Below are positions 2,780 through 63,262 of a stretch of DNA of 64,000 nucleotides, piece after piece. Both the position numbers and the translations under genes were made by a program. Position 1 is the stretch's first letter. Every line of letters starts with the position of its first letter. The notes beneath the pieces are model-generated. The model saw only the letters and a program-made list of their open reading frames with translations, was not told the origin of the DNA and did not search any database. This DNA comes from Diacronema lutheri (Eukaryota; Haptophyta; Pavlovophyceae; Pavlovales; Pavlovaceae). The DNA lies in assembly GCA_019448385.1 (NCBI GenBank), contig JAGTXO010000011.1, positions 1,060,789 through 1,124,788 of the forward strand, read 5' to 3'.

Positions 2780-3618
2780 ATGCTCGCGCTCACGACCGCC
2801 GCACTCGCCTTCGCGGGGCCCGCTGTGCGCGCTCCGGCGCGCTCGGTCGCGCACATGTCGCTCAGCGACCTGCCCGGTGCGTCGATTGAGCTCGGCGGCA
2901 AGCCGTGGGACCCGCTGGGCTTCGCCAAGCTGAACGCGCTCCCGACGGGCTCGGGCCCGGCTTCCAACCCGTCGCTCAAGTGGCTGCGCGAGGCGGAGGT
3001 GAAGCACTGCCGCGTCGCCATGCTGGTACGCGCAGCCCGTCGTGTGGCGCGCGCCAACGCACGCGCGCGCGCGCGAGGCCGAGGACGCGAGGACGGCGCG
3101 CGCGCGAACGCCGCTCGAGCGAGCTCTGCGCGCTCTGGCTGCCGCGACGGGCGACACCGCGCGCGTCGGCGCGCGCGTCGCATCGCTGGCCCGACGGTGC
3201 TCGCTCACGCGTGCGCGCCGATTCCGACGCTCCGTGCCGCGCAATCGCGCAGGCGTTCCTCGGCACGGCCTTCCAGACGTTTGGGCCGCACTTGCCAGGC
3301 GCGGCGTTCTCCGAGCCCGACTGGTTCAAGGCCTCGTACACGTTCTCGGCGCAGAACCCGGGCGGCGCGGCGCAGATCCTCCTCGGCATCGCCATCATCG
3401 AGGGCAGCACGTTCCCCGAGGAGTTTTGGGAGGCGGGCGGCGGCTCGCGCGCGGCGGGCGCGCTCGGGTTCGACCCGCTTGGCCTCTCCAAGGGTCTGCC
3501 AAAGGCAAAGGCGGACGAGATGCAGCTCAAGGAGCTCAAAAACGGGCGACTCGCTATGATTGCCTGTGCGGCGCTCGCCTCGTCCAAGCTCATCGCTGGC
3601 TCCGTTCCGTACCTCTGA
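2780..3618 (+). CDS. Light-harvesting chlorophyll a/c-binding protein (FCP/LHC)
   Basis: Two exons, 2780-3025 and 3253-3618, joined in phase 0, give 203 aa. The 227-bp intron begins GTACGC and ends GCGCAG. After a signal plus transit peptide (ALAFAGP cleavage-type motif), the mature start has the typical KPWDPLGFAKL. Helix B carries WLREAEVKHCRVAML with Glu/His/Arg chlorophyll ligands, interrupted by the intron exactly after VAML. The middle helix is AAQILLGIAIIEGSTF, and the last helix carries KELKNGRLAM with Glu/Asn/Arg ligands. The product would bind chlorophyll a/c and fucoxanthin-type carotenoid in the thylakoid membrane. Subfamily is not assigned. Confidence 0.92.
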
Positions 3619-16213: not shown

Positions 16214-19200
16214 CTACTGCAGGCGCTTTTTCGCGGCCACAGCCGCCAAGCCCAGGCCCTTTGGACCAGCGGATCCGCCCGCAACTTTCCTCGCTGCGCG
16301 TGCAGGGGGGGGTGCAACAGAAGGCGCCCGCAGAGGGGCGGCTGAGCGCGGTGGTGGCGGCCGCACCTGATTGCGCGGTGTCAGCGGTGGCCGCGGCTCT
16401 CGCATTGGTCGAGCGGCGGCAACCACCGTCTTCTTGGGCGCAGCGGCTCCCAGACCGCCAAAGCCAAAGGACGTCGTGGGCTTGGCGGCAGGTGGGCGGG
16501 CAAACGACGGAGGCGAAAACTTTCGTGCGGCGGCGACCACGGTCTTCTTAGGCGCAGCGGCTCCCAGACCGCCAAAGCCAAAGGACGCCGCAGGCTTGGC
16601 GGCAGGTGGGCGTGCAAACGACGGAGGCGAAGGCTTTCGTGCGGCGGCAACCACCGTCTTCTTAGGCGCAGCGGCTCCCAGACCGCCAAAGCCAAAGGAC
16701 GCCGCAGGCTTGGCGGCAGGTGGGCGGGCAAACGACGGAGGCGACGGCTTTGGTGCGGCGGCGACCACGGTCTTCTTGGGCGCAGCAGCACCCAGACCGC
16801 CAAAGCCAAAGGACGTCGCGGGCTTGGCGGCAGGTGGGCGGGCAAACGGAGGAGGCGACGGCTTTTGTGCGACGGCGACCACGGTCTTCTTGGGCGCAGC
16901 GGCTCCCAGACCGCCAAAGCCAAAGGACGTCGCGGGCTTGGCGGCAGGTGGGCGGGCAAACGGAGGAGGCGACGGCTTTGGTGCGGCGGCGACCACGGTC
17001 TTCTTGGGCGCAGCAGCTCCCAGACCGCCAAAGCCAAAGGACGTCGCGGGCTTGGCGGCAGGGGGGCGGGCAAAAGGAGGAGGCGACGGCTTTGGTGCGG
17101 CGGCGACCACGGTCTTCTTGGGCGCAGCAGCTCCCAGACCGCCAAAGCCAAAGGACGTCGCGGGCTTGGCGGCAGGTGGGCGGGCAAACGGAGGAGGCGA
17201 CGGCTTTGGTGCGGCGGCGACCACGGTCTTCTTGGGCGCAGCAGCTCCCAGACCGCCAAAGCCAAAGGACGTCGCGGGCTTGGCGGCAGGGGGGCGGGCA
17301 AACGGAGGAGGCGGTGGCTTTTGTGCGGCGGCGACCACGGTCTTCTTAGGCGCAGCGGCTCCCAGACCGCCAAAGCCAAAGGACGTCGCGGGCTTGGCGG
17401 CAGGTGGGCGGGCAAACGGAGGAGGCGACGGCTTTGGTGCGGCGGCGACCACGGTCTTCTTGGGCGCAGCAGCACCCAGACCGCCAAAGCCAAAATTGAA
17501 CGCTTTGGGCTTGGCGGCAGACGGGCGGGCGATCGGCGGAGGCGACGGCTTTGGTGCGGCGGCGACCACGGTCTTCTTGGGCGCAGCAGCTCCCAGACCG
17601 CCAAAGCCAAAGGACGTCGCGGGCTTGGCGGCAGGTGGGCGGGCAAACGGAGGAGGCGACGGCTTTGGTGCGGCGGCGACCACGGTCTTCTTGGGCGCAG
17701 CGGCTCCTAGACCGCCAAAGCCAAAGGACGTCGCGGGCTTGGCGGCAGGTGGGCGGGCAAACGGAGGAGGAGGCGACGGCTTTGGTGCGACGGCGACCAC
17801 GGTCTTCTTGGGCGCAGCAGCTCCCAGACCGCCAAAGCCAAAGGACGTCGCGGGCTTGGCGGCAGGTGGGCGGGCAAATGGAGGAGGCGACGGCTTTCGT
17901 GCGGCGGCGACCACGGTCTTCTTGGGCGCAGCAGCACCCAGACCGCCAAAGCCAAAGGACGTCGCGGGCTTGGCGGCAGGTGGGCGGGCAAATGGAGGAG
18001 GCGACGGCTTTCGTGCGGCGGCAACCACGGTCTTCTTGGGCGCAGCGGCTGCCAGACCGCCAAAGCCAAAGGACGTCGCGGGCTTGGCGGCAGGGGGGCG
18101 GGCAAACGGAGGAGGCGGTGGCTTTGGTGCGGCGGCGACCACGGTCTTCTTAGGCGCAGCGGCTCCCAGACCGCCAAAGCCAAAGGACGTCGCGGGCTTG
18201 GCGGCAGGTGGGCGGGCAAATGGAGGAGGCGACGGCTTTGGTGCGGCGGCGACCACGGTCTTCTTGGGCGCAGCGGCTCCCAGACCGCCAAAGCCAAAGG
18301 ACGTCGCGGGCTTGGCGGCAGGTGGGCGGGCAAACGGAGGAGGCGGTGGCTTTGGTGCGGCGGCGACCACGGTCTTCTTAGGCGCAGCGGCTCCCAGACC
18401 GCCAAAGCCAAAGGACGTCGCGGGCTTGGCGGCAGGTGGGCGGGCAAATGGAGGAGGAGGCGACAGCTTTGGTGCGGCGGCAACCACCGTCTTCTTAGGC
18501 GCAGCGGCTCCCAGACCGCCAAAGCCAAAGGACGTCGCGGGCTTGGCGGCAGGGGGGCGGGCAAACGGAGGAGGCGGTGGCTTTTGTGCGGCGGCGACCA
18601 CGGTCTTCTTAGGCGCAGCGGCTCCCAGACCGCCAAAGCCAAAGGACGTCGCGGGCTTGGCGGCAGGTGGGCGGGCAAACGGAGGAGGCGGTGGCTTTGG
18701 TGCGGCGGCGACCACGGTCTTCTTAGGCGCAGCGGCTCCCAGACCGCCAAAGCCAAAGGACGTCGCGGGCTTGGCGGCAGGTGGGCGGGCAAATGGAGGA
18801 GGAGGCGACAGCTTTGGTGCGGCGGCAACCACCGTCTTCTTAGGCGCAGCGGCTCCCAGACCGCCAAAGCCAAAGGACGTCGCGGGCTTGGCGGCAGGGG
18901 GGCGGGCAAACGGAGGAGGCGGTGGCTTTTGTGCGGCGGCGACCACGGTCTTCTTAGGCGCAGCGGCTCCCAGACCGCCAAAGCCAAAGGACGTCGCGGG
19001 CTTGGCGGCAGGTGGGCGGGCAAACGGAGGAGGAGGCGGTGGCTTTGGTGCGGCGGCGACCACGGTCTTCTTGGGCGCAGCGGCTCCCAGACCGCCAAAG
19101 CCAAAGGACGTTGCGGGCTTGGCGGCAGGTGGGCGGGCAAATGGAGGAGGAGGCGACGGCTTTGGTGCGGCGGCGACCACGGTCTTCTTGGGCGCAGCAG

Positions 19201-20263
19201 CACCCAGACCGCCAAAGCCAAAACTGAACGCTTTGGCCTTGGCGGCAGACGGGCGGGCGATCGGCGGAGAGGGCTGCGGTGGTTTGACGACCGGTAGCGC
19301 AGGCGGCGGTGGAGGCGGACGAGGGGGCTGCACGACCGCGCGCGTGGGCGGGGCTGCTCCAGAGCCGAGGAGTCGTTTGGGCGCCGGCTTTGCCAATCCA
19401 CGCCCGGTGAATATTGGCGGGGGAGGAGGCGGGGGTGGAGCGGAAAGCACCCGCGGCGGTGCCTGCCTCAGCGGCGGTGGCGGTGGCGGTGGCGGGATGC
19501 GCGTAGAGGGCGGCGGTGGCTGAGGCGCGCGCGTAAACAGCGGTGCGCGCGGCGGAGGCTTTGGCGCCACCTTTAGAATGAAAGGCTGCGTCGACGCCGC
19601 TGAGGACTTGGGCGTTGCCAGCTTAAGCGACTTGAAGAAGGGCGGCGGCGGCGAGCTCGGCGCTTTGCGCGGCGCAGCGGATGGCGGCGCTGGCTTGGGC
19701 GGCGCGGCCGGCGGGAAGAGCGACTTGAAGAAGGGCGGCGGCGGCGAGCTCGGCGCTTTGCGCGGCGCAGCGGGTGGCGGCGCTGGCTTGGGCGGCGCGG
19801 CCGGCGGGAAGAGCGACTTGAAGAAGGGCGGCGGCGGCGAGCTCGGCGCTTTGCGCGGCGCAGCGGGTGGCGGCGCTGGCTTGGGCGGCGCGGCCGGCGG
19901 GAAGAGCGACTTGAAGAAGGGCGGCGGCGGCGAGCTCGGCGCTTTGCGCGGCGCAGCGGGTGGCGGCGCTGGCTTGGGCGGCGCGGCCGGCGGGAAGAGC
20001 GACTTGAAGAAGGGCGGCGGCGGCGAGCTCGGCGCTTTGCGCGGCGCAGCGGGTGGCGGCGCTGGCTTGGGCGGCGCGGCCGGCGGGAAGAGCGAGCTTA
20101 GCGACGGGAGCCGAACAGGCGCAGATGCGGGCTTCGGTGACGGCAAAGGTCGGCGTTTCGGCGGCTGGGGGCTTGCGCGCGTCCGTTTGAGGAGGCCGTC
20201 AAGAGGGCTGAGCCCGCCGCCGAGCGCTGCCGCCGCCCGCGCGCGCAACAGCTGCGCCCCGGC

Positions 20264-20311
<48 letters not shown>

Positions 20312-21285
20312 GGGCGGTCGTGCCCTCCCGACGAACCGGTCCACCTCCTCGCGCCGCTGCTGCGCCTTGTTGGCAACCTGCCACGCGGAAAGCGGCGCGG
20401 CCGGTCGGGGAGTGCGCAGCACGCGCGGCGGCGTGTCGAAGGGTGGGGTGCGCGCGGCGAGCAGAGGAACGGCACGCGCGTGCGGCGCCGGGGCGCCCGC
20501 ACGGCCGCAGCTCTGCGCACCGACTCGGACGCCGAGCGCACGGCGCCCTTGGTCGCCGTCTGCAGCGCACGGGGCGTCGCGGCGACCTTTGAGACCGCAC
20601 CGTCAACGGCGGTGCTCACGCCGTCCACGATGCGCTTGGGCGTCGCGGCGATGTCATCTGCCACCTCCTTCGCCTTAGATTGCACGCCGTTCACCACCTT
20701 GCCCGGCAGCGCGACGACCGAGCCGACGGCTGCAGAGACGCGCGACGTGGCCGCGTCGGCGACGCCTGCGGCAGCGCCGGACACGGCGCCGGCGACGGAG
20801 CCAGCGGCGCCTTTCGCGCCCGAGGCGAGTGCGCCACCCACGCTCGAAAGCGCTTCCACCACTTTTGATGTTGCAGCTGGCGCGACGGGCGGCGGCGCGC
20901 GCGCCGGCGGCGAGGAAGGGGGCGGCGGAGTCGCGGGCGGCGGCTTCGGGGGCGGCGGCGGCGCCTGAGCGACGGGCGGCGGGCGGCTCGACGGCGGCGG
21001 CGGCGGTGGCGGCGGTGGCGGCGGCGCCTTGACCTGCGGTCGCTCCTCCTCCGGCTCGGGCTCGCTGCCCCGCGTAGAGAGGTTGTCGAGATAGTCGGAG
21101 CTCATGACGATCCGTGCGGCTGTGCGCTCGCCGCGTGCGGCGCGCGGCACGTCCACCGGCGCGAGCGGCCGAGTTGGCGAGGCGAAGCATCGGCCGGCGA
21201 GGCAGCGACCGAGGCCGGCGCTAGGCAGGATCGCAGCGCTCGACGCCGACGCCGCGAGGAGGAGCAGCGCGCGCGAGAGCCTCAT
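16214..21285 (-). CDS. Long tandem-repeat, low-complexity protein with plastid-type leader
   Basis: Two exons, 20503-21285 then 16214-20377 (intron 20378-20502, phase 0), give 1,648 aa. The N-terminus is a signal peptide (MRLSRALLLLAASASSAA) followed by a basic, hydroxylated stretch with F-A-S-P and ending RIVMSS, like a bipartite plastid leader. Next come a polyproline segment and an Ala/Val/Lys-rich amphipathic helical region (about 115-250). Exon 2 has a polyproline stretch, five near-identical 31-residue units (core PPPPFFKS), a Pro-rich linker, then about 25 units of 38-39 residues containing FGFGGLG, AAPKKTVVAA and PPFARPPAAKPATS. The repeats are very basic and lack acidic residues. No known family. 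Candidate roles: plastid condensate or pyrenoid-linker-type protein, or an extracellular structural protein. Confidence 0.72.
16400..19265. repeat. Tandem array of ~114-bp units inside the repeat protein gene
   Basis: About 25 head-to-tail units of 114-117 bp, each encoding FGFGGLG-type plus PKKTVV-type blocks on the minus strand. Units differ mainly by one or two extra codons in the proline stretch and by Arg/Gln/Pro at one position. A higher-order period of 345 bp (three units) is visible, for example between 18461 and 18806, showing duplication of multi-unit blocks. Both strands remain open in several frames, an effect of the repeat. Confidence 0.95.
19626..20093. repeat. Five 93-bp tandem units
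   Basis: Five consecutive units of 93 bp encode a 31-residue Pro/Ala/Lys block ending PPPPFFKS on the minus strand. The units are almost identical; the leftmost (last-translated) one differs by a Pro-to-Ser change. The near-identity points to recent expansion or gene conversion. Confidence 0.93.
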
Positions 21286-21364: not shown

Positions 21365-22009
21365 ATGGTTGAGGTCGATCCCATCCTGCTCACGACCGTG
21401 ATTGGCGGCCTGGTCGCGCTCGTCATCTACCGCGATCACGCGCTACAGCTCGTCGGCGCGGCGGCCGCATGCCAAGAGCGCGCGCGGGCGGCGCCGAGAC
21501 TGGCTCCCGCGGCGCGGGCTGATGTCGACCGCGGCGTTGCGAGCCTGGCCGGCAGCCTTGCAGCCTTGCAGCCGTCCTCGCATCCTGTTGAGCGTGCCGT
21601 GTCGCCGCCAAGCGGCGCGCTCGGTCGCGAGGCGGGGGTCCACGCTCCACGCGAGGGCGAGGACGGCGGGGCGCGCCACGCGCAGCAGCCGGAGCAGCAC
21701 GTGCGCGCGAGGCTCAAATTCACGGTCGACGGCAATCTGCGATGGCTGCGGGGCGCGGTCGACGATTCTTGCGCGCCCGACGCTCTCGCCGCGCTCGACG
21801 AGCTCTGGGCCGTGCTCGAGCACCTGCAAGGCCTGGGCCGGCTGGGGCGGCAGCGCACGGTTGAGTACTGCAACGCGCTCGTCGACGCGGACGGCCTCGC
21901 CCTCTTGCACGCCCTCAGCGAGGGCAAGCGGAACGAGGTGCGGGACGAGCGCGTGCGCGCCGTGGCCACGCGCCTCTTCCGCGAGCTCGTGCCGCTGATT
22001 TGGAGCTGA
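21365..22009 (+). CDS. Small single-pass membrane protein, unknown function
   Basis: Single exon, 214 aa. The frame is open upstream, but ATG 21365 directly precedes a hydrophobic segment (PILLTTVIGGLVALVIYR, about residues 6-23). A polar, low-complexity linker follows, then a helical C-terminal domain of about 95 residues beginning VRARLKFTVDGNLRWLRGAV and ending FRELVPLIWS, with regularly spaced leucines. It looks like a membrane-anchored helical protein with its C-terminus on the opposite face. It is divergent from the repeat-protein gene, so the two may share regulation. No family recognised. Confidence 0.6.
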   Translation: MVEVDPILLTTVIGGLVALVIYRDHALQLVGAAAACQERARAAPRLAPAARADVDRGVASLAGSLAALQPSSHPVERAVSPPSGALGREAGVHAPREGEDGGARHAQQPEQHVRARLKFTVDGNLRWLRGAVDDSCAPDALAALDELWAVLEHLQGLGRLGRQRTVEYCNALVDADGLALLHALSEGKRNEVRDERVRAVATRLFRELVPLIWS

Positions 22010-22922: not shown

Positions 22923-24874
22923 ATGGCTCACTTCTGTCGCCTCGCGCTCCTCGGCCTCGCGGCCGTGGGCGTGCGCGCGCAGCAGGCCGAACAGCAGCTC
23001 GAGATGGGCAGCCTACGCTCCGCATTTGTCAACGAGGACAGCTTCCAGTACTACTCGATCCTCATCCCATCCAAGTCGAACGCGATCAAGGTGAAGCTGA
23101 TCCCGAGCTACGGCGACCCTGACGTCTACCTCTCGTTCACTGCGCCCGAACCGGACGACTTGACGGCGACGTGGGTGATGGACGACGTGGGCGCGGAGGA
23201 GCAGGTGATCAAGCGCGACGCCGTCGAATTCTGCCAGTCAGAGCCGTGCATCCTGCACATCTCCGTGTACGGGTACGACGAGTCGGAGTACATGATCGGC
23301 GTGTACGACGCGTCGACCGCGGGCGTGATCGAGTCCGAGTGCTCGCCCGGGTGCAAGCAGGACATGATCGCCGACGGCGTTTGCCAGCAGGTGCGCCCAT
23401 CCACCGTTCCTCCTCGTCCGCCGCAGGCTCGCGCGCCGCGCCGCGCGCGCGCCCCTTTGCGTCGCGCGCAGCTCGAAGCGGCGGTGCGGCCGCGCATGGC
23501 AGCGCGCGGTATGCGTACCGCGCGCCTGCCTGCGGTAAGCGTGGTCGCTACGGCACCCCGTCGACCGAGTGCGACGCACGCCTTGCCGCACAACGCGACC
23601 TCTGCCGAGCGCTTGCTCGCATCCTCGACCTCTGAGGGCAAAGGGCGAAGGGCAAACCTCACAGACCAATGGCACGGCGCGGCTTCTGACGAATGGCAAC
23701 CCTCGCGCTCACGCGCACCTCATCCGCCGCACCGCACGGCAGGTGTGCAAGACGTCGGCGTGCTACGACGACGGAGGCGACTGCGACAAGCAGAACTGCG
23801 CGCCCGGCTGCGACGAGGGCTGGGTGGGCGACGAGTACTGTGACGAGGCGTGCTTTGTCGAGGCGTGCAACTGGGATGGCGGTGACTGCTCGGAGAACTC
23901 GGGCTGCAACACGGGCTGCCTGCCCGAGTACATCAACGACGGCGAGTGCGACAGGTGCGCGACGCGCCGCGCCTGCGCCGCCCGCCGCGCCCGCCAGCAC
24001 ATGCCGCCGAGTGGCGTGTCGCGCTTGCGCCGCTCAACGCGCGGGCACCCCGTCGCGCCGCGCGCGCGCGCGCGCGCCGCGCAGTGAGTGCAACGTGGCG
24101 GCGTGCGGCTTTGACGGCGACGACTGCTTCCACGGCGCGACCGAGTGCTACGGCGAGGCGGACGGCACCGATTACCGCGGCTCCAAGAACCACACAAAGT
24201 CGGGCAAGGAGTGCCAGGCGTGGGACGCGCAGTTCCCGCAGCAGCACACGCGCACGCACCTCAACTACCCCGAGGGCGGCCTCGGCGGGCACAACTTTTG
24301 TCGCAACCCGGACGGCGAGGCGATGCCGTGGTGCTACACGACGGACATGGAGGAGAGGTGGGAGTACTGCAACGTGGGCCAGCCATGGCAGCACTGCAAG
24401 CAGAACGAGATCCCGCGCGCCGTGCAGGTGAGCGGCGGCAAGAAGTGCCTCACGCCGACGACGCCGCCGTCCGGGCCACTGCCCACCTTCGAGGCCAGGT
24501 GCGGCAGCGGCGACAACCACGGCGACGTGTGCTCGCGCGAGTGCTGCAACGCAGCGAAGGCGGCGTCCGCCTTCTGCGCGAACGACGAGACACACTACGG
24601 GCGGTATCAGGAGTACAAGATGAAGGTGGCGTTCTCGCAGCTCAAGTTCAACTGCACGTCGTGCGAAGCCTTCCACGAGTTCTTCTCGAACGCCGAGACG
24701 ATCCTGCAGATGGGCGGCGGCTCGAAGTTGATCCGCTTTGCGGACTCTGTCGGCTTCAAGGTGCTCGTCGCCGCCTTCATCATCATGCTGCTCATGCTCT
24801 GCGTAATCGCCGCATCCATTGCGCGCTACGTCTGGCAGCGCCGCCAGTACTCGATGCCTGAGTCCGCCGTCTGA
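22923..24874 (+). CDS. Type I membrane protein with Notch-like (LNR) repeats and a kringle domain
   Basis: Three exons, 22923-23390, 23743-23954 and 24085-24874, give 489 aa. Signal peptide (about 1-19), then a beta-sandwich resembling pre-peptidase C-terminal (PPC) modules (about 22-130; DPDVYLSFTAPEPDD). Three LNR/Notch modules follow at about 140-240, each with the C-x(n)-GD/DG-x-C ... DGGDC pattern; introns 1 and 2 cut the first and third at the same point, just after the D-G-x-C core. A complete kringle spans about 244-325 (DYRG, GKECQAW, NFCRNPDGEAMPWCYT, WEYC). A Cys-rich linker and a C-terminal membrane helix (LVAAFIIMLLMLCVIAASIA) with a short cytosolic tail complete it. Likely a cell-surface adhesion or receptor-like protein; the ligand is unknown. 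Confidence 0.85.
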
Positions 24875-31200: not shown

Positions 31201-34200
31201 CGCGTGCGCGTGCAGCTGCCCGGCTGCGGGGTTGACGGCGCGCTGCTGACGCCGTGGGTGCGCGCCGTGCGCCACGCGCCGCCACCGCCGTCGCAGCTGC
31301 AGCCGGCGCAGCCGCCGCCGAAGGCGCCCGCTCTCACGGGCGCACCCGCTCCAACGGCCGCGCCCATCTTCTCCGCCGACTTTGGCGTGCGCGAGGCCCT
31401 GCCGCTCGACGGCGGTGGCGAAGAGCTGCGGCTGCGGCTGCTGCGAGCCCTGCGCGCGGGCGGGCGCGGCGCGGGCGACGTGACCTTTGCGCTGCTCGAG
31501 GCCGCGCCGCGCGACGGCCGGGAAGGCGCGCGCGCGGGAGAGAAGATGGCGCACGGCGAGCGTGACGTGCTCATCGCGCACGTGCGCGCTCCTCTCTCGC
31601 GCGCGCGCCGCGCCGCGCGTGCTTGCAGGTTGCGCGCCCGCGTGTGCGCCCACCCCACACCGCCCCCCCCCCCCCCCCCCCCTCATCCGCCCTCGCCCCG
31701 CGCCGTCCTCGTGCGCAGGGCGCGGTCAACCTCGAGGAGCTGCTGCTGCGCGGCGCCGACCTGGTCGCCGCTGCCGTCCCACTCGTGAGCGTGCCGCGCG
31801 CTGAGCAGCGGGGCGAAGGCGGCGGCGAGCGCGTGGGCAGCCTGCGCGTGAGCGTGGAGACTGGAGGGGCACAGAGCGCGCTGCACGCCGCCATGCGCCA
31901 GATCGCAGCCTCGACGCTCAAGCTCGACGTCGAGATGCTCGACGTCACGCCCGCGGCCGAGCTTGCGCGCAACCTTGAAGGCCGCGCGCTCCTCGTCGAG
32001 GTCGACGCGCCGCCGCCCATCCGCGCGCCACCTCGGGCCGACATCGCTCAGCCCACGAGCGCAGGCGTCGCGCGCACGCTCGAGGCGACAGTGTCGCGCG
32101 GGACGGTGCGGTGGGGCGCGTCCTTTCGCCTCGCGCTGCCGCACGACGCCGCCGAACGCGCCGCACTCGCGCGCGCGCTGCGCTCCTCCGCCGAGGGCGA
32201 GGCCGACATCGTGCTCACCCTCCTCACGCCCGGCGACACGCGCGCGCGTTCGGAGCGCGCGCGGCGTGACGAGCGGGTGGGTGAGGCGCTCGTCGACCTG
32301 GGCGCGCTCTTCCGCGCGGCCGAACGCGCCGCACAGACTGGCGGCGCGCCGCCCGCGGCGAACGCCGCGCGCGCGCCCGCCGCCAGCGCGCCGCTCGCGC
32401 TCGCACCGGGCGCGTCGACGGACATCCGCTCGCGCCGGTTGGGTGTGGCGCTCATTGACCCGCGGGGCGCGGCGCGGGGCGGCGAGCACGCGCCGCTTGT
32501 CGCGCTCACCGTCTCGCTCGAGGCGGCCGAGGCGCTGCTTGGCCTCGTGCGCGACGCGGAAGCGACCGCGGCGCCTACGGCCGCGCCGCCGGCGCCCAAC
32601 GCCGCCGCCGCGCCGCGCGCCGCCGCGCCGCGCGCCGCCGCGCGAGCGCCGACGCGCGCGGACGAAGTGGCCGATGCGGACGAAGCGATGGTTGAGCTGA
32701 CGCTGCGCTCGCTGCACGCGGCGGCGGGCGCGCGGCTTGACCGCGCGGGCACGCGGCGCGTACGTCTGACCGTCGAGACGGGCGGTGTGGCCATCGGCGA
32801 GAGCGCAGAGCTCAGGCTCGGTGCAAGCACCCCTCTCGCGCCGGCTGGGTGGGCGGGCGCGGCTCGCGACGGCGCGGCCTCGGCCGACGCACTGGTCGTG
32901 CGGCTGCCCGTTGCGCCCGCGTCTTACGCGTTCGGGCGCGCGCTCGCGCAGCGACTGCAAGCGGCCACGCCGCTCGGCCCCGCGGGCACGTCGCCGAGGC
33001 CCTCTCCCGGCCCATCGCTTGTGCTCGCGCTGCACGCGGTCGATGCGCGTGGCGCGCTGCAGCCGCCGCGACTGTTGGCGAGCGGCGAGGTCGACCTTCT
33101 GACGGCACTGGGCAGCGCGGCAGACTCCATCGAGCTCGCTGTCGAGCTGCGGCCTCAGCCACCGGCGGTTGATCAAGTGGCTGCCGATGCAACGGCGGCA
33201 GCGGCGAGCGCGCACGTGTCGCAGCCGCACGCTGGCGCGCTGTGCACGGTGCGGGGCACGCTCGCCGCTGGTCGTGCGCTGCGCATGCTCAAGCGCTTTG
33301 ACCTCTCCGCCCTGCCGCAGCCGCCCGACATAGCGGCCCGCGCGAGCGCACGCGCCGTGCGCGTGGCTGTCGGCGAGTTGCGCCTCGAGCCGTCGCCGCC
33401 GCAACCGTCGCCGCCGCCGCCGCAACCGCAGCGCGCGACGCTCAACGGCGGCGGTCCGGTGTCAGTGGAGGTGCGCCTGCCCGGACAACCGGCACTTCTT
33501 CCGTTACGCACGCAGGCCGCACCCTTGGCACTCACCGGCGGAGCGGGCGGCGGCCGTGTCGCTCGTTTCGACTTTGCGCACGGCGTGGAATTGGATGACG
33601 GCACGGGCGGCCAGACAGCGGCGGGCGTCGCGCTCGCCGCCGCGCTCGCGAGAGGCGCGGCCGCCGACGGCGAAGTGGTCTTCAGCGTGTACGCCCACGC
33701 GCACGCAGCAGCTGACACGCTCACGCGGCAATCGGCTGAAACGGCCGTGCCGACGATGGAGGGCGGCGCTGCTTTGGTCGGCGAAGTGCGCGCGCGCGCG
33801 CGCGCGCGCCCACAGGCGCGGCTGCGGCCCCCCGACGAGAGCAGCTGCGGCCCCCACAGGCGCGGCTGCGGCCCCCACAGGCGCGGCTGCGGCCCCCCGA
33901 CCAGAGCAGCTGCGGCCCCCACAGGCGCAGCTGCGGCCCCCCGACCAGAGCAGCTGCGGCCCCCCGACCAGAGCAGCTGCGGCCCCCACAGGCGCGGCTG
34001 CGGCCCCCCGACCAGAGCAGCTGCGGCCCCCACAGGCGCGGCTGCGGCCCCCACAGGCGCGGCTGCGGCCCCCCGACCAGAGCAGCTGCGGCCCCCACAG
34101 GCGCGGCTGCGGCCCCCACAGGCGCGGCTGCGGCCCCCACAGGCGCAGCTGCGGCCCCCCGACCAGAGCAGCTGCGGCCCCCACAGGCGCGGCTGCGGCC

Positions 34201-34629
34201 CCCCGACCAGAGCAGCTGCGGCCCCCACATGCGCGGCTGCGGCCCCCCGACCAGAGCAGCTGCGGCCCCCACAGGCGCGGCTGCGGCCCCCCGACCAGAG
34301 CAGCTGCGGCCCCCCGACCAGAGCAGCTGCGGCCCCCACAGGCGCGGCTGCGGCCCCCACAGGCGCGGCTGCGGCCCCCACAGGCGCGGCTGCGGCCCCC
34401 CGACCAGAGCAGCTGCGGCCCCCACAGGCGCGGCTGTGGCCCCCACAGGCGCAGCTGCGGCCCCCACAGGCGCAGCTGCGGCCCCCCGACCAGAGCAGCT
34501 GCGGCCCCCACAGGCGCAGCTGCGGCCCCCCGACCAGAGCAGCTGCGGCCCCCACAGGCGAGGCTGCGGCCCCCCCCGCGCGCGCGACGGGCGCAGCCAC
34601 TCGCCCGTTACGCCCCCACCCCACTGCAG

Positions 34630-47563: not shown

Positions 47564-49555
47564 CTAGGCGAGCGGGCCATCGCCCTTTGCCTGTGCGTCG
47601 GCCTCGTCGACCGTGCGGACCCCGTGCAAGCAGCTCGCCAGCAGCTGCTCCAGCGGCACTTTGAACGCAATGCTCGGGTACGAGTGAGCGAAGAAAAGAG
47701 CATGGAAGCGCTCCGCGGAGAGCGGATCGGCGCTCGGCCAATCGTCGAGCGCATCCGCCGCCGCGTCCGCTGGTGCGCAAAGCGCGTCGCCCGCGCTGCG
47801 CTGCCGGTGTGACTCTTGAGCCTCGCCCTCACTCTCGCACGGCGGAGGTTGCGCTGGCGCTGGCGACCGTTGCGCGCCATCGGTTGACGGCAGCGCGCTG
47901 ATGAGGCCCGCGGCGTGCGTAATATGGCTGGGCGTGAGCTCCTTCGCCCAAGCCCACGGCGCGCCAGGGCCGCACGAGCCGCTTGTCGGAGGCGTGCAGC
48001 TCACCAGCATCGGCTCGCGCGGCACCTCGTCGCGTGTCGCCTCGTCGCGGGTCGCCTCATCGCCCGTCGCCTCATCGCCCGTCGCCTCATCGCCCAGCGC
48101 CTCATCGCCCAGCGTCTCATCGCCCAGCGCCTCATCGCCCAGCGCCTCGTCGCCCAGCGCCTCATCGCCCAGCGCCTCGTCGCCCGTCGCCTCGTCACCC
48201 GTCGCCTCGGCGCGCAGCGTCTCGTCGCCCAGCGCCTCGTCGCCCGTCGCCTCGTCGCCCGTCGCCTCGTCACCCGTCGCCTCATCGCCCGTCGCCTCGT
48301 CGCCCGTCGCCTCATCGCCCGTCGCCTCGTCGCCCAGCGCCTCGTCGCCCGTCGCCTCGTCGCCCAGCGTCTCGTCGCCCAGCGCCTCGGCGCACGGCGT
48401 GCCGCGCACATCCGGCCGAGCCGCGCCGCCGCTGGGCCTCCCGCCGTCAGTCCGGAGCCGCTCAGTCCGGAGCCGCTCGGCCGCTGCACTTGGCGCAGGA
48501 CCGCCGCCGGCCAACGCCGCAGCGGCGGCCTGAGCGCACGTCACATGCGGCGGCGTACCCTCGTCACTCGTGGCGGCGCAGGTGCCCCGGCCCGCACGGT
48601 GCGCACTCGCCACGTGCGGTGCGGGAGATGTCCCGGCGCACCCGCCGCCAACAGCCGCGGCATGGTGCGCGTGCAGGGTGCGCGGGCTGACGAAGCCGAC
48701 GGATCTCCCGCCAGCTGAAGCCGAACGCAGCTGCGGCGGGCGCTCGGCCAAAGGCGCGGCTGTGGCTGCGACGGGCCTAGCGCGCCGTGCGTCCGCCTGC
48801 GTGCGAAGCTGGCGCGAAGCTGCGGAGGTGAGGCGGAAAGGCGAGCTCGCGCCAAGCGTAACAGGCGCGCCAGCAGCCGCTGGCGCCGCAGCGGCAGTCA
48901 CGGTACCAGCCGCAGTCACGGCAGCCGCACGTTCGCGCGGCTCGGCCGCAGTGGCGGCGCGAGTGCGCTGCGCGATCCGATCCGTAGGCGACGGATCGGA
49001 TCGTGACTGCGATAGCTCCGCACATGCAAGCGCGCCGGTGCCGAGCAGCGCGGCGGCCGCGCCGCCAGCGGCCGCGCCCGCCGGCGAGCCGGGTGCGACG
49101 GTCGACGGCGGCGAGACACGCCGCAGCCGGCGGTCACGGGCGGACACGGTGAGCGCGGGCGGTGAGGCTGGTCCGGCGTCGATGTGCTGCGCGCTCCGTT
49201 TGCGCGAGCGCGTGAGCGGCACGAATGGCGGGAACGGGTGCAGCCGCACGGTCACCCACAAAGATGGCGTGTCGCGCGGCAGCTCGACCTCGGGGAACAA
49301 CGCGCAACTGCGCGGCGCGACCACCGTCTTGATGCGCGACGAGCGAATGGGCAGGTGCTCCTCCCACCGCTTCGCCCATCCCTTGTAGTGCACCTTGATG
49401 GTGCGGCGCTGCTCGTCGTGCGCGACAACGTTCGCGGGCACCCACACGCCGTACGTGTCCTCGCACAGCAGCGGCCACCCGTCCTCTGAAGCGAGGCCCA
49501 GCTCAGCCACCCACCACGGCCGCTCGGACGACCGTCGCCCCTCCTCCTCCGCCAT
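47564..49555 (-). CDS. Tudor-knot/chromo-barrel protein with 24 pentapeptide repeats
   Basis: Single exon, 663 aa from ATG 49555. Residues about 26-75 form a Tudor-knot or chromo-barrel domain (DGWPLLCEDTYGVWVPANVV, IKVHYKGWAKRWEEHLP), of the kind that binds methyl-lysine or nucleic acid in MRG/MSL3/PHF20-type proteins. A long Ala/Thr/Pro disordered region follows, then 24 consecutive pentapeptides of the form [AT]-[LT]-[GR]-D-E, and a folded-looking C-terminal helix set (PLSAERFHALFFAHSYPSIA, VPLEQLLASCLHGV). The start is 48 bp from that of the divergent KMT2 gene, suggesting shared regulation with a chromatin enzyme. Likely a nuclear chromatin factor. Confidence 0.75.
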   Translation of the reverse strand: MAEEEGRRSSERPWWVAELGLASEDGWPLLCEDTYGVWVPANVVAHDEQRRTIKVHYKGWAKRWEEHLPIRSSRIKTVVAPRSCALFPEVELPRDTPSLWVTVRLHPFPPFVPLTRSRKRSAQHIDAGPASPPALTVSARDRRLRRVSPPSTVAPGSPAGAAAGGAAAALLGTGALACAELSQSRSDPSPTDRIAQRTRAATAAEPRERAAAVTAAGTVTAAAAPAAAGAPVTLGASSPFRLTSAASRQLRTQADARRARPVAATAAPLAERPPQLRSASAGGRSVGFVSPRTLHAHHAAAVGGGCAGTSPAPHVASAHRAGRGTCAATSDEGTPPHVTCAQAAAAALAGGGPAPSAAAERLRTERLRTDGGRPSGGAARPDVRGTPCAEALGDETLGDEATGDEALGDEATGDEATGDEATGDEATGDEATGDEATGDEALGDETLRAEATGDEATGDEALGDEALGDEALGDEALGDETLGDEALGDEATGDEATGDEATRDEATRDEVPREPMLVSCTPPTSGSCGPGAPWAWAKELTPSHITHAAGLISALPSTDGAQRSPAPAQPPPCESEGEAQESHRQRSAGDALCAPADAAADALDDWPSADPLSAERFHALFFAHSYPSIAFKVPLEQLLASCLHGVRTVDEADAQAKGDGPLA
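48021..48390. repeat. 15-bp minisatellite, 24 units
   Basis: Tandem 15-bp units (plus-strand form CGCCTCATCGCCCGT with variants) encode acidic pentapeptides ending D-E in the minus-strand Tudor-knot gene. The unit is 3n, so length changes keep the frame. Confidence 0.93.
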
Positions 49556-49603: not shown

Positions 49604-50353
49604 ATGGAGGCCCGCATCGCCGAGCAGACGGCGCGACAGACGGCGCGGCTGAGCGAGCGCGTGCCACTCGACGCATCTCCGCCGCTCGACGAGGGTGGCC
49701 GCCGGCTCATCGGCAGGCAATGCCTGCTGCGCACGCACCGCGCGCGCGGCTCGCCGCCGCCGACGGCCGCTGCGGCCGGAGCGCGCGGGCGTGGCGGGCT
49801 TGTTGGGCAGCGCGACGAACGCGCGGCTGGGCGTGGCGGGCAGGCGGCGTGTGCGTCCGCCGCCGTATCTGCGGTTATCGAGCCACCTGACTTCACGCTT
49901 GGCGTCGTGATCGACGCCGTCGTGTTTGACAAGCGCGCCGCGCGCGACGCGGCGCGCCGGCCCAACTGCGGCGGAGAGGCCGAGTTAGTGGGCAGTTCGG
50001 TGCGCCTGCTCGTGCAGCTGCACGGCGCCGACGGTGGCGGGCGTGGGAAAGACGTGTGGGTGGACCCTTTCGCGAGAAGTGCTGAATTGCTGCTCGGCGC
50101 GCACGTGTGCATCGCGCCATGCTCTCGCGCGGGGCACGCGTGGCCTGCGCGCGTCTTCGTGCCGCTCGCGCCGCTCGAAGCGGCGGCCGCGTCGCGCACC
50201 GGCACGCCCGGCACGCCGATCGACGGCAGCGCATGCGGCAGCGCGGGCGCGCACGGCGGAAGTGGGCCGCTTGGCCGCGCGCGTGTGTGGGTTCGCTTCT
50301 TTGGCAGGCCGCGCGGCAAGGGGAGCGACACACCGCAGCAGCAGCAGCAGGCT

Positions 50354-50390
<37 letters not shown>

Positions 50391-53300
50391 AGGCGGAGGC
50401 GGAGGCGGAGGCGGAGGCGGAGGCGGAGGCGGAGGCGGAGGCGGAGGCGGAGGTGGAGGCGGAAGCACGCATGGCCGAGGTTGGCCTCTCTGCGCGTGCG
50501 GCCGCAGTGCGCGCGGCGCGCGCCGCGCGCGGGGGGGGCGAAGCGTGTGTGTCGCGCGGCAGCGTTGGAGAGCTGCTCCGCGCGCTTGCGCTCGCGCACG
50601 CGCGCGAGCCGAGCGACGTGGACGCGCATGCCGCGTGCCTCGAGCTCGTCAGCGCGGACTCGCTCTACCCACTCACCTACTGGGCGCGTTCAGTCGGGTG
50701 CAACGCACTGAACGATGCGGCGCAGTCTGCCGCCGCCGCCGGCGGCGGCAAGGGCGGGGGCGAGGGCGACGGCGCTGCGGGCCCGAGCGGCACGGTCAGC
50801 GAGGCTGCGCCCGAGCAGGGCGCGCTCGCGCCCGCGCTTGCGCCCGCGCTCGCGCTCTGCGCGGCGCTGCTGGCTGCCGTCAGCGCCAAGGCAACCGCCG
50901 CGCCCACCGCCGCCGCCGCGTGCGCACTGGCGGCGGGCGGCGGCGCGGGCGGCGACGGCCGGCCGGCAGCGGCCGACGGCAGTGGCGTCGACGGCGGCTC
51001 GCTGCCGTTCCGTCTCGATGCGCCGTGTGCGCTGTCGCAGCCGGACGCTGGGTCGATCGGCGAGCTGCGTCAGTCGTGTGAGCTGCTCCGGGCCGTTGGT
51101 CTCGCCGTCGAGTGGCTGCTCACGACGCCGCTGCACGCGCCGTACGCGCAGCCGCACGGCCTGTCGCCCGCCGCGTCGCCGACCACGCCGCGCGCCGCGC
51201 CCGCGCCGCCCGAGCGCGACGAGCGGCCGCGCGCTGAGCGCTGGTGCGAGGTGGCGACGAGCCGTGGACTAGGGCTCGTGATGCCGTCCACCGCGCGCGA
51301 GCTCGGACCGCTCGAGGCGCTCGTCGGGTGCAGGCTCGCCGTCGCCGTGCCCGTGGACGGTGCGTGGCCCTTCGCGCTGCGCGTGGGCGACGTGTGCGCC
51401 TTCGACGCTCGCACCGCGCGCCACTTGCTTCGGCTCGAGGGCCGCGCAGCGGGCGACGCGCCGTGCAAGCGCGCGCTCTGGCTCGCCCTCGGCTCGGGCG
51501 TCTACGCGTGGCGCCAATTGCCTCGGCTGCCGCCGCCGCGCGTGCCGCCAGCCGCCGCGCTTGCCGCCGGGCGCGCGCGCGGCGCCGGCGCGGGCCGGCG
51601 CGGCGGCGCGCGCGGCGGCGGCGGGCGCCGCGCCCACGCCGCCGGCGCCGACGGTGCGCCCGGCGGCGAGCGCGGCGCTGGCGCCGAGCGGCCGCCGCTG
51701 GTCGAGCCGCCGCTGCGCACGTCGGCGGGTGTGCTGCACGCGTGGGCCGCGGCCGCGGGCAAGTGCGTCGCGTGCCGGCAGGGCGGCGAGCTCGTGCGCT
51801 GCGCGCTCTGCCTGGGCGCGTTCCACGCCACGTGCGCCCACGAGGGTGGCGGCGAGCCGCCGCGCGGCGCCGGGCTTGACGGCGGCCAGTGGTGGCTGTG
51901 CCACGGCTGCGTGCGCTGCGCGCGCTGCGGCGCGGGCGCGGCGGGCGAAGCGCATGGCGCCGCGTGGAGCTGGCGCGACGACCACGCGCTGTGCGCGCCG
52001 TGCGCGTTGCTCGTGGACGCGGGGCGCGCGTGCAGCGCGTGCGGCGGCTGCTGGCGGCCGTGGCAGGTCGGCGCGCAGTGCAGCCGGTGCGGCGGTTGGG
52101 CGCATGCGCGCTGCGGCGCACGTGCCGAGGCCGACGGCGGTGTCGACGGCTGGGCGGCGCCGGCGCTGCTCTGGTGGGACGGCGCGCCATGCGCGGCCGC
52201 CGCCGCGCCGGACGCGGCCGACGCGCGCCGTTGTGGCGGCGGTGGCGGCGTTGGCGATGGCGGCGGCGGTGGCGGAGGTGGCGCGCTTGTGGCGTGCGGC
52301 GCCAAGCGCGCGGTCGCGCCGCCGCCGTCGCCGCCTCCGTGCGGCGGCTGCACGGCGCGCGAGCAGCGGCAGCTGCTGTTTGGTCTCGTGCAGCAGGCGG
52401 CGGAGCTCGACGAGGAGCGCATCTTCGCGCAGCCTGTCGACACGCGCGAGGAGCCAACGTACCGGCTGTACATCCCGACGCCGCTCTGCCTGACGGACGT
52501 GCGCACGGCAGCTGCGCGCGGCGACTTCTCCGACTCGGCGGCAGTGCGCGAGGCGCTCTACTTGATCGCGCGCAACGCGATGGTCTACAACGTGAGCGCC
52601 GCCTCGCCCTTCTACCGCCTCGCGCAGCGCTTCTTCAAGCGCGCGCAGGCGCTGTGCGATGCGTTCCGCGACGAGCGCGAGGCGCCGCCCACGCCGGCCG
52701 CGCCGACGCGGGCGGACAGCGGCGGCGAGCGTCGTGCGCGCAAGCGCAAGCGCGGCGGCGGTGAGCAGGCGGCGGGCGACAGCGCCGACGAGGCGACTGG
52801 CGCGCACGACGCGGAGCGCGCCGCGCAGCACGCCGACGCGGGCGAGGCGGCCGGCTCGGCCGGCCGCGGCGGCGCGTGTGGCGTCGAACGCGACGGCCGG
52901 CCGTACGCGCAGATGGTGGCGCTCGTCGCGCACGAGGCGGAGCCGCTTGAGCTGCTGCAGCTCTGCGCGCTCTGCGGCTCGGGCGGTGGCGACTGCGAGC
53001 TGCGGCTGTGCGTCGGCTGCGGCGACAGCTTCCACTGGTACTGCGACGCGGGCGGGGGCGCGCACCGGCAGATTGCGGCAGGCTGGCGGTGCGTGGCGTG
53101 CATGCTCTGCGCCGTGTGCGGCGAGGGCAGCGACGAGGCGCGGCTGCTGCTCTGCGCGTGCGGCGTGGCCATGCACTCGACGTGTCTCTCTCCGCCCGTC
53201 GACCGCTGGCCCGAGGAGCGCGACTGGCGGTGCGCGCCCTGCGCGACGTGCGAGCGGTGCGGTCTCAACCTGCCGCACGCGCACTCGACCCACGCGCCGC

Positions 53301-56300
53301 CCTCGGCGCACCTGCGAGCGCTCGCCGGCGCGGTGAGCCGGCGCGAGGCGGCGGCCAAGCGGCGCACACACGCGGCGGGTGGCGCGCGCCGCGACGGGCG
53401 GAAAAGCGGCCACACCGCCAAGCGGCAACGGCCCGACGGTGGCGAGCGCGATGGTGTCGGTGCGCTCGTCGGTGCGCTCGGCGGCGCGCGCCCGCTCCCG
53501 CGAGGCGGCCAGGCGGAGCGCGCGCGACGCGCCGCCGAGCGCGAGGCCGCCTCGCTCTGCGCGCGGCAGGAGGGGCTCCTCGCCGCGCTCGGCGGCGCGC
53601 CGCCCGACGGCAAGCCACCGGGTGGCGTGGAGCCACCGGGCGGCGTGGAGCCACCGGGCGGCGTGGAGCCACCGGGCGGCGTGGAGCCACCGGGCGGCGT
53701 GGAGCCACCGGGCGGCGTGGAGCCACCGGGCGGCGTGGAGCCACCGGGCGGCGTGGAGCCACCGGGCGTGCGTGAGGGCGGTGCGGCGTGGCGCCTCGCC
53801 AAGAGCTGCGCGGGCGCGGCCGGCGGCACGGCGCACGGCCCACCGGCCGGCGCGACGGGTGCCGATCAGCCCGACAGCGCGCGTCACGCGCCGACGCGCG
53901 CATTGCCGCCGAGCGCGGGCGCGAGCGGCGCGACAAACGGACACGGCCTGCTCGGCGCCACAGGAGCGCTCGACGCGCTCGGAGGCTCGACATCGGAGCG
54001 CGCGCAGATGGCGCTCGCGGCGGCCACGCGCGCAGGGGGCCCGGCGGAGGACTTGGAGCTGCGGGTTGCGGCCACCAATCTGATGGCCGTCGACGAGGAC
54101 CTCGGCGACGATCTCGGCGGAGAGCAGGCGGCGGCCGCGGCCGCGGCGGCCGAGGCGGCGGCGAGCGCCGTGCGCATGCGCGCGACCGACGGCGGCTGCG
54201 GCGCGCCCGCGAGCGGCGTGCGCGCGGCGCGCGAGCCCGCCATGGAGCGCAGCGGCGGGCCGGCTGCGAGCGGGGACGGCGAGCAGGGGACAGATGCGCG
54301 TGCGGATGCCGAGGCGGGGACGGGGGCGGGGGCGGGGGCGGAGGCGGGGGCGGGGGCGGAGACGGCGACGGGCGCCGGGGCGGCGGAGGCGGAGGCGGAG
54401 GCAGATGCGGAGGCGGAGGCGGAGGCAGTCGTGGGTGAGGACGGCCTTCTTTCGACGGCCGTCTCGCTCGCGCACATTCCGCCGCTGCAGCGCAAGCTCG
54501 CGCTCAGCGCGCTGCCCGCCGACTATGCGCGCGACCCGCTCGCCGCGCGGCTGTGCGGCCCATGCGTGCGGCTGCAGCGCGAGAAGGGCTTTTGCGCGGT
54601 GTGCATGGGCGCGTGGGACGACGCCTGGTCGGACGAGCACGACGCGATGGTGCAGTGCGACCGATGCGCCTTCTGGGTGCACGTGCGCTGTGACCGCGCG
54701 CTGCGCGCCCACCCAAAGCTGCTCAGCGCGATGACGTACGCATGCGCGCGCTGCAGGGGAGAGCTCACCGCGCCGCCGCCGCCGGTCGGCGGCCGCACGT
54801 TTGGCGTCACATGGGAGCGCGTGCTCGGCGATCCGGACGCAAACCCGCCGCTCGTCTGGCCTCCGCGCGCGGCCGGCGCTGCGCGCCCACCCAACTGCCC
54901 GCCGGCGAGCCCGCTGCCGAGCGCGCGCGCGCGCGACAACACGGCTGACGCGGGCGCGCTCGACAGCACGACGGACAACCGCACGACGGACGGCGCCTTC
55001 GACGGCGCGGGGCTTGCATCGCCGCCAAGCGCGGGCCGTGGGCGCGGGCGCGGGCGCGGGCGAGGGCGCGGGCGGGGACGCGGGCGCGGGCGCGGACAAC
55101 TTCTGACCGCCGGCGGCGACGGCGGCGACGGCGGCGACGGCGGCGACGGCGGCGACGGCGGCGACGGCGGCGACGGCGGCGACGAGCGCCCCGGTGCGAC
55201 GGGGCGCACGCCGCGCGCACGACCTCCGCCGTGGGAGGTCGAGGCGCGCCGCTCGGTGCCCGAGTGCGGCGTGTGCGCCGCGTGCATCGACAAGCCGCGC
55301 TTCGGTGGTCCCAACCGGATGCGCAGGCCGTGCGCACTGCGCGCGGACGCGGTGCGGCGCGCGAGGCTCGTCCACGCGCACGCGCACGCGAGCGCTTCCG
55401 TGCACGACGCGGATGATGCCGCGTCGGGCGTCCGCTCGGACGACGAGGGCGGCTCGCACGATGGCGGCGGGTGCGAGCCCTGCGCCGAGCTGCTCCCGCT
55501 CGTCGCGCGGCATGGCGGCGGCGGATGCGCAGATGCGCGCGCCGCTTCGTCCGCGTGGACGGCCGGGGCGGCGCCGTGCCGCGAGAATGCCGCGGGCGCC
55601 GTTTCCGGCGGGGCCGCGTCCGGTTCGCGGCTGCCTCTCCCGGACTCGCCGTTGCACCCGAGCGGTCCGTGCGCGGGCGACGACACGCACAGATTGGCGA
55701 CGGGTGGTCCGTGCGCGGCCGCGCCGTCCCCGCCGCGCGGCTTTGTCGGCGGCTGGGGCGCAGCGCAGCCGCTGCAGCAGCCGGCGCGCCCGCCGAGCAA
55801 CTCGCCAGCGGGCGAGTGGAGCGCGGCCGCCGCGCACGAGCGGTCGCCTGATGCGCAGCGCAGCTCTGCGCATCAGCACCTCCAGGCACAGCAGTGGCAG
55901 CGGCTGCAGCACGAGGAAACGCAGGCGCAGGCGCACGCGCAGGCGCACGCGCAGGCGCCGCTGCTGCCACCACCACCGCCACCGCCATCGCAGCTCGCGC
56001 CGTCGCAGCCGCAGCCGCTGCAGCAGCGGCAGCCATCGTACGGCCAGCAGCGGCAGCCATCGTACGGCCATCGGACGGCGGCGTCGTGGGGGGCGCCGCA
56101 GCCGCCGCCCTCTCCGCCGCTCCCGTCGCCTCTGCCATCGCCCCCGCAGCCGTCGCCGCCGCGCGCGCCCTGGGAGGGGGAGAAGGGCGGGGAGGCGGGC
56201 GAGGAGGCGGGCGAGGGCGAGGGGGGGAAGGGCGGGGAGGAGGAGGCGGGCGAGGGCGAGGGGGAGAAGGGCGGGGAGGAGGAGGCGGGCGAGGGCGAGG

Positions 56301-61714: not shown

Positions 61715-63262
61715 TCAGAGCTCCTCCCACCACGCCGGTTGCGAGTTGGGCGTGCGCAGCGTCAAAACCTCGACGCCGCCCGGCACGATGAGGAGCGTGT
61801 GCTCGAATTGCGCTGATCTGCCGCCGTCAGCCGTCGCGATCGTCCACTTGTCGTCCCACTCGGTCACCGCGACGGCGCGCTCGTTGACCATCGGTTCGAT
61901 GGTGAAGGTGTGGCCGACCGCCATCTCGCCGTTGCGGTCGTCGTTCCTGCGGCCCGCGCGCGCGCGCGCGGCAGGCGCGTCAGCGCGCGGGGCGAGGGCG
62001 CGGCGCGCGCGGAGGGTCGCTACGCGTGGCGGTGCGCACCTGTGGTGCACGACGTTTGGCGGCATGTGGAAGGCGTGGCCGATGCCGTGCCCGACGAACC
62101 CACGCACGATGGAGAAGCCGCTCGGCGCCACCACCTCCTCGATCGCAGCACCGATCGCCTGGCCGGCGGCGCGGGCGGGAGGCGCTGAGAGGCGCGCAGT
62201 CCGGACGATGCTGGGCGTGGCGCGCAGTCCGGACGATGCTGGGCGTGGCGCGCGCGCCGATTGACGCGCAGGTGCCCGCCGCACGCGGCGCGCGCGCGCA
62301 CCTTGTACGGCACGCCCGGCGCGCAGATTGCAATCGCCGCCTGCCACGCGTCGTGCGTGACGCGTACGAGTCGTCGGCCCTGCGCGTCGACGCGCCCGAC
62401 GGCAAAAGTCTCGGAGAGGTCGCCGTGGTACCCGCCATAGTAGCACGTCACGTCGACGTTGACAATGTCGCCCTCGTGCAGCACGTTGTCGTCCGGGATG
62501 CCGTGGCACACAATCTCTGCGAGCGGACGCGCGACGCCGCGCGGGTGAGCGGCCGGGCGCGCGCCGTCTGCACACGCCGCGCCGCGCGCGCGCACCGTTG
62601 ACCGAGGTGCAGACGCTCTTCGGGTACCCGTGGTAGTTGAGCGTGGACGGGTAGGCCCCGCGTGCGATCGTCTGAACGGCGCGGGCGCCGCCGCGCCGTG
62701 AGCGGCCAATCCGCTTCACGCAGAGCGCGCGCGCCGGACGTGCGATCGCGCGGCGCGGTGGACGCGCGGCGTGGCGCGGCGGGCGCACCTCCTCGTGCAC
62801 GATGCGATCGATCTCGTCGAGACGCAACCCCGGGGCGATCGCCTTGCCCGCCGCGTCGAGCACGTCTCGCGCGAGCGCGCACGCGGCGCGCATGCCTGCG
62901 ATTGCCTCAGGCCCCTTGGCCTCGATGTCCCACGGGATGACGGGCCGGCGATAGCCAGGCGAGCCCGTGGCCGCGTAGTCGGGGCGTGGGATGTGCGCGG
63001 GCACGACGCGCATCGGCGAGAGCTGCCCCTTGCGCACGCGCCGGACCTGGGCGGCCGCCGGCCGCGGCGGCGGCCGCTCGGCCGCGCGCTTTGGCGCACG
63101 CTTCGCGGGCGCGCCAAAGCCCTTGCTCGAGGCAGCGCTGGCGCGCATCACAGTCGGAGGGCGCCGCGCTACCACGCGCGCGCCGCCGCCGTGCACGGCG
63201 ACGGTGCACGGCTGCAGCGAGAGGAGGGCGGCCAGCGCGAGAAGGCGCGAGGCGTCGCGCAT
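61715..63262 (-). CDS. Type 1 methionine aminopeptidase, organellar
   Basis: Five exons (minus): 62789-63262, 62596-62671, 62302-62516, 62040-62158 and 61715-61946, total 371 aa. A hydrophobic leader plus basic stretch ending RRPPTVMRASAA suggests plastid (possibly mitochondrial) import. The pita-bread fold motifs are complete: AYPSTLNYHGYPKSVCTSVN, EIVCHGIPDD, GDIVNVDVT and GYHGDLSETF (two Asp ligands), FVGHGIGHAFHMPPNVVHH (His ligand), GHTFTIEPM and SAQFEHTLLI (two Glu ligands). All five metal ligands are present. It removes N-terminal Met from organelle-made proteins. Intron 3 (62159-62301) contains a 27-bp tandem duplication near 62194-62248. It is the last gene before the telomere-like repeats. 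Confidence 0.92.
   Translation of the reverse strand: MRDASRLLALAALLSLQPCTVAVHGGGARVVARRPPTVMRASAASSKGFGAPAKRAPKRAAERPPPRPAAAQVRRVRKGQLSPMRVVPAHIPRPDYAATGSPGYRRPVIPWDIEAKGPEAIAGMRAACALARDVLDAAGKAIAPGLRLDEIDRIVHEEVRPPRHAARPPRRAIARPARALCVKRIGRSRRGGARAVQTIARGAYPSTLNYHGYPKSVCTSVNGARARRGVCRRRAPGRSPARRRASARRDCVPRHPGRQRAARGRHCQRRRDVLLWRVPRRPLRDFCRRARRRAGPTTRTRHARRVAGGDCNLRAGRAVQGARARRVRRAPARQSARAPRPASSGLRATPSIVRTARLSAPPARAAGQAIGAAIEEVVAPSGFSIVRGFVGHGIGHAFHMPPNVVHHRCAPPRVATLRARRALAPRADAPAARARAGRRNDDRNGEMAVGHTFTIEPMVNERAVAVTEWDDKWTIATADGGRSAQFEHTLLIVPGGVEVLTLRTPNSQPAWWEEL

Follow-up and report, generated by a model that had tools for sequence, protein, structure and literature searches.

We describe here a gene on the minus strand of a 64,000-nucleotide stretch of Diacronema lutheri DNA (the window) that encodes a strongly basic repeat protein of 1648 residues (161 kDa). 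Tentatively, and with a probability of roughly one in three, we propose that this protein is a nucleus-encoded, plastid-imported polycation scaffold, anchored through a helical segment to membrane or lipid, that would cluster plastid nucleic acid. The proposal builds on what was observed of the gene: its reading frame, its repeats, its charge, its helical periodicity and the resemblance of its presequence to those of plastid-type proteins. The window forms the end of a contig (1060789-1124788 of 1124788) in a genome of D. (Pavlova) lutheri; for strain NIVA-4/92 of this species, PMC8379373 gives 103 contigs totalling 43,502,671 bases, with a GC content of 73.25%. The features of the gene are as follows.

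20503..21285, minus strand: exon 1, residues 1-261, an open frame from the ATG at 21285 with ordinary codon usage
20378..20502, minus strand: intron of 125 bp, GTGCGG...GGCAG, of GT-AG type, restoring a single frame
16214..20377, minus strand: exon 2, residues 262-1648 and the stop, an open frame
21106..21285, minus strand: presequence, residues 1-60, a putative signal peptide (assigned by eye) and a basic region like a transit peptide, which ends in RIV ahead of Met 61
20875..21105, minus strand: short acidic stretch, then polyproline, residues 61-137
20503..20874, minus strand: Ala/Val/Ser-rich amphipathic region, predicted helical, residues 138-261 (wider extent about 138-280), with prolines 194, 216 and 238
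19625..20095, minus strand: five 31-residue units SLFPPAAPPKPAPPPAAPRKAPSSPPPPFFK, residues 356-512
16409..19222, minus strand: 25 units of 38-39 residues, FGFGGLG...PKKTVV, from residue 647
16217..16408, minus strand: basic C-terminal tail, residues 1585-1648

The spliced model runs from the ATG at 21285 to the stop at 16214-16216, joining 21285..20503 to 20377..16214. The signal peptide and the repeats lie in different frames, which the 125-bp intron joins; this intron was picked from several possible ones, and alternative splice choices also work. Five intron regions of other genes were inspected by eye, four of them readable, and all four begin with GTG (three with GTGCG) and finish with AG. 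Compared by eye, the intron of the repeat-protein gene appears to resemble these four. Plus-strand frames flank the gene: a downstream ORF ends 41 bp from its stop, and a divergent ORF (21365-22009), which has a hydrophobic N-terminal segment and matched neither Pfam (E up to 10) nor NCBIfam (E up to 1), begins 79 bp from the gene and may share a promoter with it.

In the coding frame, pN/pS between the 38-39-residue units is 0.33 over 24 units and 0.17 over 23 (without unit 15), while the other two frames of the gene strand give 2.3 and 1.2 (24 units) or 5.1 and 1.2 (23 units). The wobble-aligned antisense frame, in which third positions coincide, is equally low, as expected, and the pN/pS test alone therefore does not name the strand. 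Codon usage across the array (mean ln RSCU) is -0.19 on the gene strand and -0.41 in the wobble-aligned antisense frame. It is poor by comparison with the 0.22 to 0.44 of four ordinary window genes, and another gene-strand frame, with 10 stops, scores higher at -0.05; perhaps usage is poor on both strands because 25 copies repeat one draw. Exon 1 has ordinary usage (0.32), and exon 2 upstream of the array (about 20377-19580) scores 0.30, where the opposite strand reaches 0.21. The antisense frame stays open over 1050 codons, with its sole ATG near the end, at codon 1043, and with the worse codon usage. We take the gene strand as coding because it carries the ATG, the presequence and the typical codon usage of exon 1.

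The protein is 25% proline and 23% alanine, has 1 Tyr and 0 Trp, and contains 22 acidic and 226 basic residues; in the mature form, K and R number 217 and D and E 20. The earlier note had described about 25 basic units of 38-39 residues, each with one FGFGGLG block, one PKKTVV block and no acidic residue, and had proposed predicting the protein's pI and targeting. This description holds almost throughout: FGFGGL was counted 25 times, at 24 intervals of 38 (18 times) or 39 residues (6 times), PKKTVV occurs 25 times, none of the 25 units lacks either block, and the 24 full units are free of D and E. One unit departs from it, carrying FGFGGLA in place of the FGFGGLG of the other 24. The computed pI is 12, probably the ceiling of the method, as every strongly basic part gave the same value. 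E1588 is the sole acidic residue among the 1327 that follow residue 321. Tandem Repeats Finder gives the DNA array a score of 4765, with 24.5 copies of 114 bp and 93% matches, and the array is thus not due to chance. Its 942 residues include 75 Phe and neither Trp nor Tyr, and the protein has 27 FxFG motifs.

Additional to the earlier description are the 125-bp intron, the array of five 31-residue units and the alanine-rich amphipathic segment. A 16-residue polyproline run lies between the helical segment and the 31-residue units (356-512), and a proline-rich link connects the latter to the 38-39-residue array. From its composition, we infer that the repeat region is disordered; on the charge-hydropathy line the 38-residue array falls on the ordered side, a placing that we attribute to its alanine content.

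Import into the plastid is likely, judging from a comparison of presequences within the genome. From 46 candidate N-terminus loci, the 24 whose start was readable by eye were taken into the comparison; of 30 light-harvesting loci fetched, 25 were among these 46, five near copies being omitted. The plastid-type comparators (n=18) comprise the window's M24 peptidase, 15 light-harvesting-family loci and two of the FBPase family, and the secreted-type controls (n=7) belong to the S10 and C1 peptidase families, assigned by family only. The motif [VIA]x0-1M[SATVMR] ends the presequence in 17 of the 18 plastid-type comparators, 15 of which represent one family with several near copies, and in none of the seven controls within the scanned range, control L057 having VRMA just past it. 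The repeat protein carries it as IVMS, and shuffles of its presequence region's own residues contain the motif in 21% of cases. Its Met 61 stands later than the motif Met of all 17 comparators (25-39), its presequence region contains two acidic residues, and it lacks the aromatic residue (AF, AY, SF or GF, judged by eye) that ends the signal peptide in 16 of the 18; the two comparators without this aromatic are stromal-type. The M24 peptidase itself (61715-63262, minus strand) has a plastid-type presequence ending PTVM-RAS.

The amphipathic segment shows a helical periodicity. The hydrophobic moment of residues 190-262 peaks at 99 degrees, a peak reached by 0 of 300 shuffles, and that of residues 138-190 at 97 degrees (shuffle fraction 0.023). 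Prolines 194, 216 and 238 are spaced by exactly 22, three random positions showing equal spacing in about 1% of cases, and the resulting 22-residue units are only weakly similar to each other (shuffle fraction 0.035). A single-sequence AlphaFold2 model places helices across the region at low confidence (mean pLDDT 64). Apolipoprotein A-I, whose amphipathic 22-mer repeats bind lipid, offers a likeness in its prolines every 22 residues and its helical moment near 100 degrees; however, the repeat protein is Ala-rich, has just three proline-led units and matched no apolipoprotein-like Pfam family up to E 10.

Within the scaffold that we propose, the signal and transit peptides would be removed on import, and the 22-residue proline-punctuated helical segment would dock on a membrane or lipid surface of the plastid. 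The remaining stretch of about 1300 nearly acid-free residues would behave as a flexible polycation in which the FGFGGLG blocks may act as cohesive stickers and bring about condensation, and in which the intervening stretches, rich in K/R and proline, may bind a polyanion. That polyanion would be plastid nucleic acid, giving rise to membrane-tethered nucleoid or RNA clusters. Among stromal partners we favour nucleic acid first, lipid globules second and Rubisco third. S/TPKK is a DNA-binding motif of histones, and the PKK of the repeat units echoes it. The plastid genome is described as AT-rich (35.6% GC). In favour of the scaffold proposal as a whole we count this AT-richness and the PKK echo together with the presequence motif, the strong basicity, the helical moment with its 22-spaced prolines, the mostly silent differences between units and the 75 Phe of an array without Trp or Tyr; the lack of a relative in the searches made, the late Met 61, the acidic residues of the presequence region, the chance frequency of the motif and the one-family bias of its comparators, the missing aromatic, the ordered-side placing of the array, the weak similarity of the 22-mers and the low-confidence helix model count against it.

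Two further likenesses may be drawn. PhaF, which belongs to bacterial granules and whose tail is histone-like, similarly joins an amphipathic helical part to a long K/A/P-rich basic tail; its setting is not the plastid, and it is not known to carry FGFGGLG blocks. The FxFG nucleoporins share FxFG motifs and low-complexity spacers with the repeat protein, which differs from them in its plastid-type presequence, its 38-residue period and its near absence of acidic residues.

A bolder reading, which we hold to be rather unlikely, is that the protein serves as a lipid-anchored, EPYC1-like polycation scaffold in a plastid without a pyrenoid, where it would form a condensate of a different sort, for instance a cluster of globules or a nucleoid tethered to a membrane. 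Were this so, linker-type proteins would also serve plastid condensates besides the pyrenoid. Screens for linkers by form alone seek basic disordered repeat proteins, and the host of this one is described as pyrenoid-free; the repeat protein is, then, either a counterexample that sharpens such screens or the sign of an unnoticed plastid condensate.

Rather unlikely too is that the protein coats or glues together the lipid globules of the plastid or an eyespot, in which case the helices would bind the globule and the basic cohesive tails would join globules together. The amphipathic 22-residue units would suit such a role, and eyespots are reported in Diacronema and Pavlova species and are plastid-located in haptophytes (PMC2781859); however, we found no eyespot record in the literature for D. 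lutheri itself, the helices contain few large hydrophobic residues, and a globule coat has no need of such high positive charge.

Searches for relatives bear on the possibility that the gene has little specific function. At E 0.001, no homologues were returned for the first 954 residues, for exon 2 residues 380-1387 or for exon 1, each search having scored just about 8000 candidates sharing most words. A Pro/Ala-rich query draws in candidates by chance, and these searches did not recover the protein itself; hence the coverage of algae is doubtful and absence elsewhere is not implied. Neither the long ORF of exon 2 nor the ORF of exon 1 matched Pfam at E 0.001; at looser limits (Pfam and NCBIfam, E up to 10 or 1), matches lay below the cut-offs and included DUF2076 at E 0.0009. 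A PDB sequence search gave no match for the repeats and one chance-level match (E 0.018) for the helical segment. Within its own genome the gene matched only itself (23, 3 and 5 stretches), with no paralogue, and an in-frame pattern scan of viral contigs matched 61 stretches, of which none was confirmed. A DNA-pattern search for mature N-termini like SDYLDNL found one place, the narrow pattern missing this gene itself. In separate searches, HU-family DNA-binding proteins gave one partial match (C49:75409-75534, with a TAG in frame) and fibrillins 13 matches. A search for the carbonic-anhydrase family LCIB had no match, but it had none in the control genomes either and so carries no weight.

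It is unlikely that the gene simply reflects a rapidly evolving expansion of repeats close to the end of a chromosome, with little specific function. A degenerate TTAGGG/GGGTAA-like telomeric array (63684-64000) closes the contig, so the window looks subtelomeric, with telomere-like repeats about 42 kb from the gene; the poor codon usage of the array and the lack of a paralogue or relative, in searches that suit the query poorly, point the same way. Nevertheless, the differences between units are mainly silent, and the FGFGGL and PKKTVV blocks persist in all 25.

Less likely again is a secreted, proline-rich structural protein of the cell covering, resembling extensin. A start resembling a signal peptide, long stretches of polyproline, 19 SPPP motifs and the missing aromatic that typifies the plastid signal peptides of this genome would agree with secretion, but the presequence ends as those of the genome's plastid proteins do, with a motif found in 0 of 7 secreted-type controls in the scanned range. 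By the extensin cross-link criterion of SPPPP and Tyr, SPPP occurs 19 times and Tyr once in the whole protein.

The earlier note had suggested a plastid-targeted pyrenoid linker, of which the plastid targeting and the basic sticker-and-spacer repeats have the support of form; the linker role is not supported, given a host described as pyrenoid-less, the lack of Trp and the proline-rich units. Like EPYC1 and PYCO1, the repeat protein is probably plastid-targeted, basic, repetitive, of low complexity and of sticker-and-spacer type. It differs from them in its period (38-39, against about 80 in PYCO1 and, by the earlier note's figure, about 60 in EPYC1), in its additional amphipathic N-terminal segment, in lacking Trp, in that a helical sticker is unlikely and in that its host is reported to have no pyrenoid; it is also more basic than PYCO1, for which a period of about 80 and a pI of 10.03 are reported (PMC10288592). 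PYCO1 requires a Trp motif, the KWSP sticker, to bind the Rubisco small subunit (PMC10288592). The units appear too proline-rich for a long helix like the EPYC1 sticker and would leave little room for it: the longest proline-free stretch within a unit is 13-14 residues, and 19 at the run-in to the first. FLIPPer looks for disorder and for repeating structured elements spaced 20-120 residues apart (PMC11570498); the spacing fits, and there does not seem to be a structured element to match.

Heureux et al. 2017 (PMC5853415) describe P. lutheri strain CS-182 as lacking a pyrenoid, with three earlier papers cited, and report 3-fold higher Rubisco amounts; they note that in the picture of P. lutheri the absence is less evident than in the one of P. 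viridis. A condensate could be present in small or induced form where no pyrenoid is visible, and the linker reading is therefore made less probable rather than discarded. As EPYC1, PYCO1 and CsLinker are described as sharing no sequence homology, missing homologues are not counted against it, and no haptophyte linker was found among the titles listed by literature searches or in the parts of two reviews covered. Least probable of the readings, accordingly, is that the protein links Rubisco in the manner of EPYC1 or PYCO1, within a Rubisco condensate that is induced or easily overlooked: the basic low-complexity composition and a spacing within FLIPPer's 20-120 speak for it, but the host is described as pyrenoid-free, none of the 1648 residues is the Trp essential for PYCO1 binding, and the unit leaves little room for a helical sticker.

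Elsewhere in the window, the plus strand carries stretches of a light-harvesting-family protein (2867-3064 and 3253-3582), a Kringle domain in an algal protein (23693-24874) and a 3103-codon ORF (49604-58915) with a PHD, a bromodomain and weak CXXC matches. Further tandem arrays lie at 33809-34575 (periods of 21, 65 and 327 bp) and at 48025-48393 (period of 15 bp).
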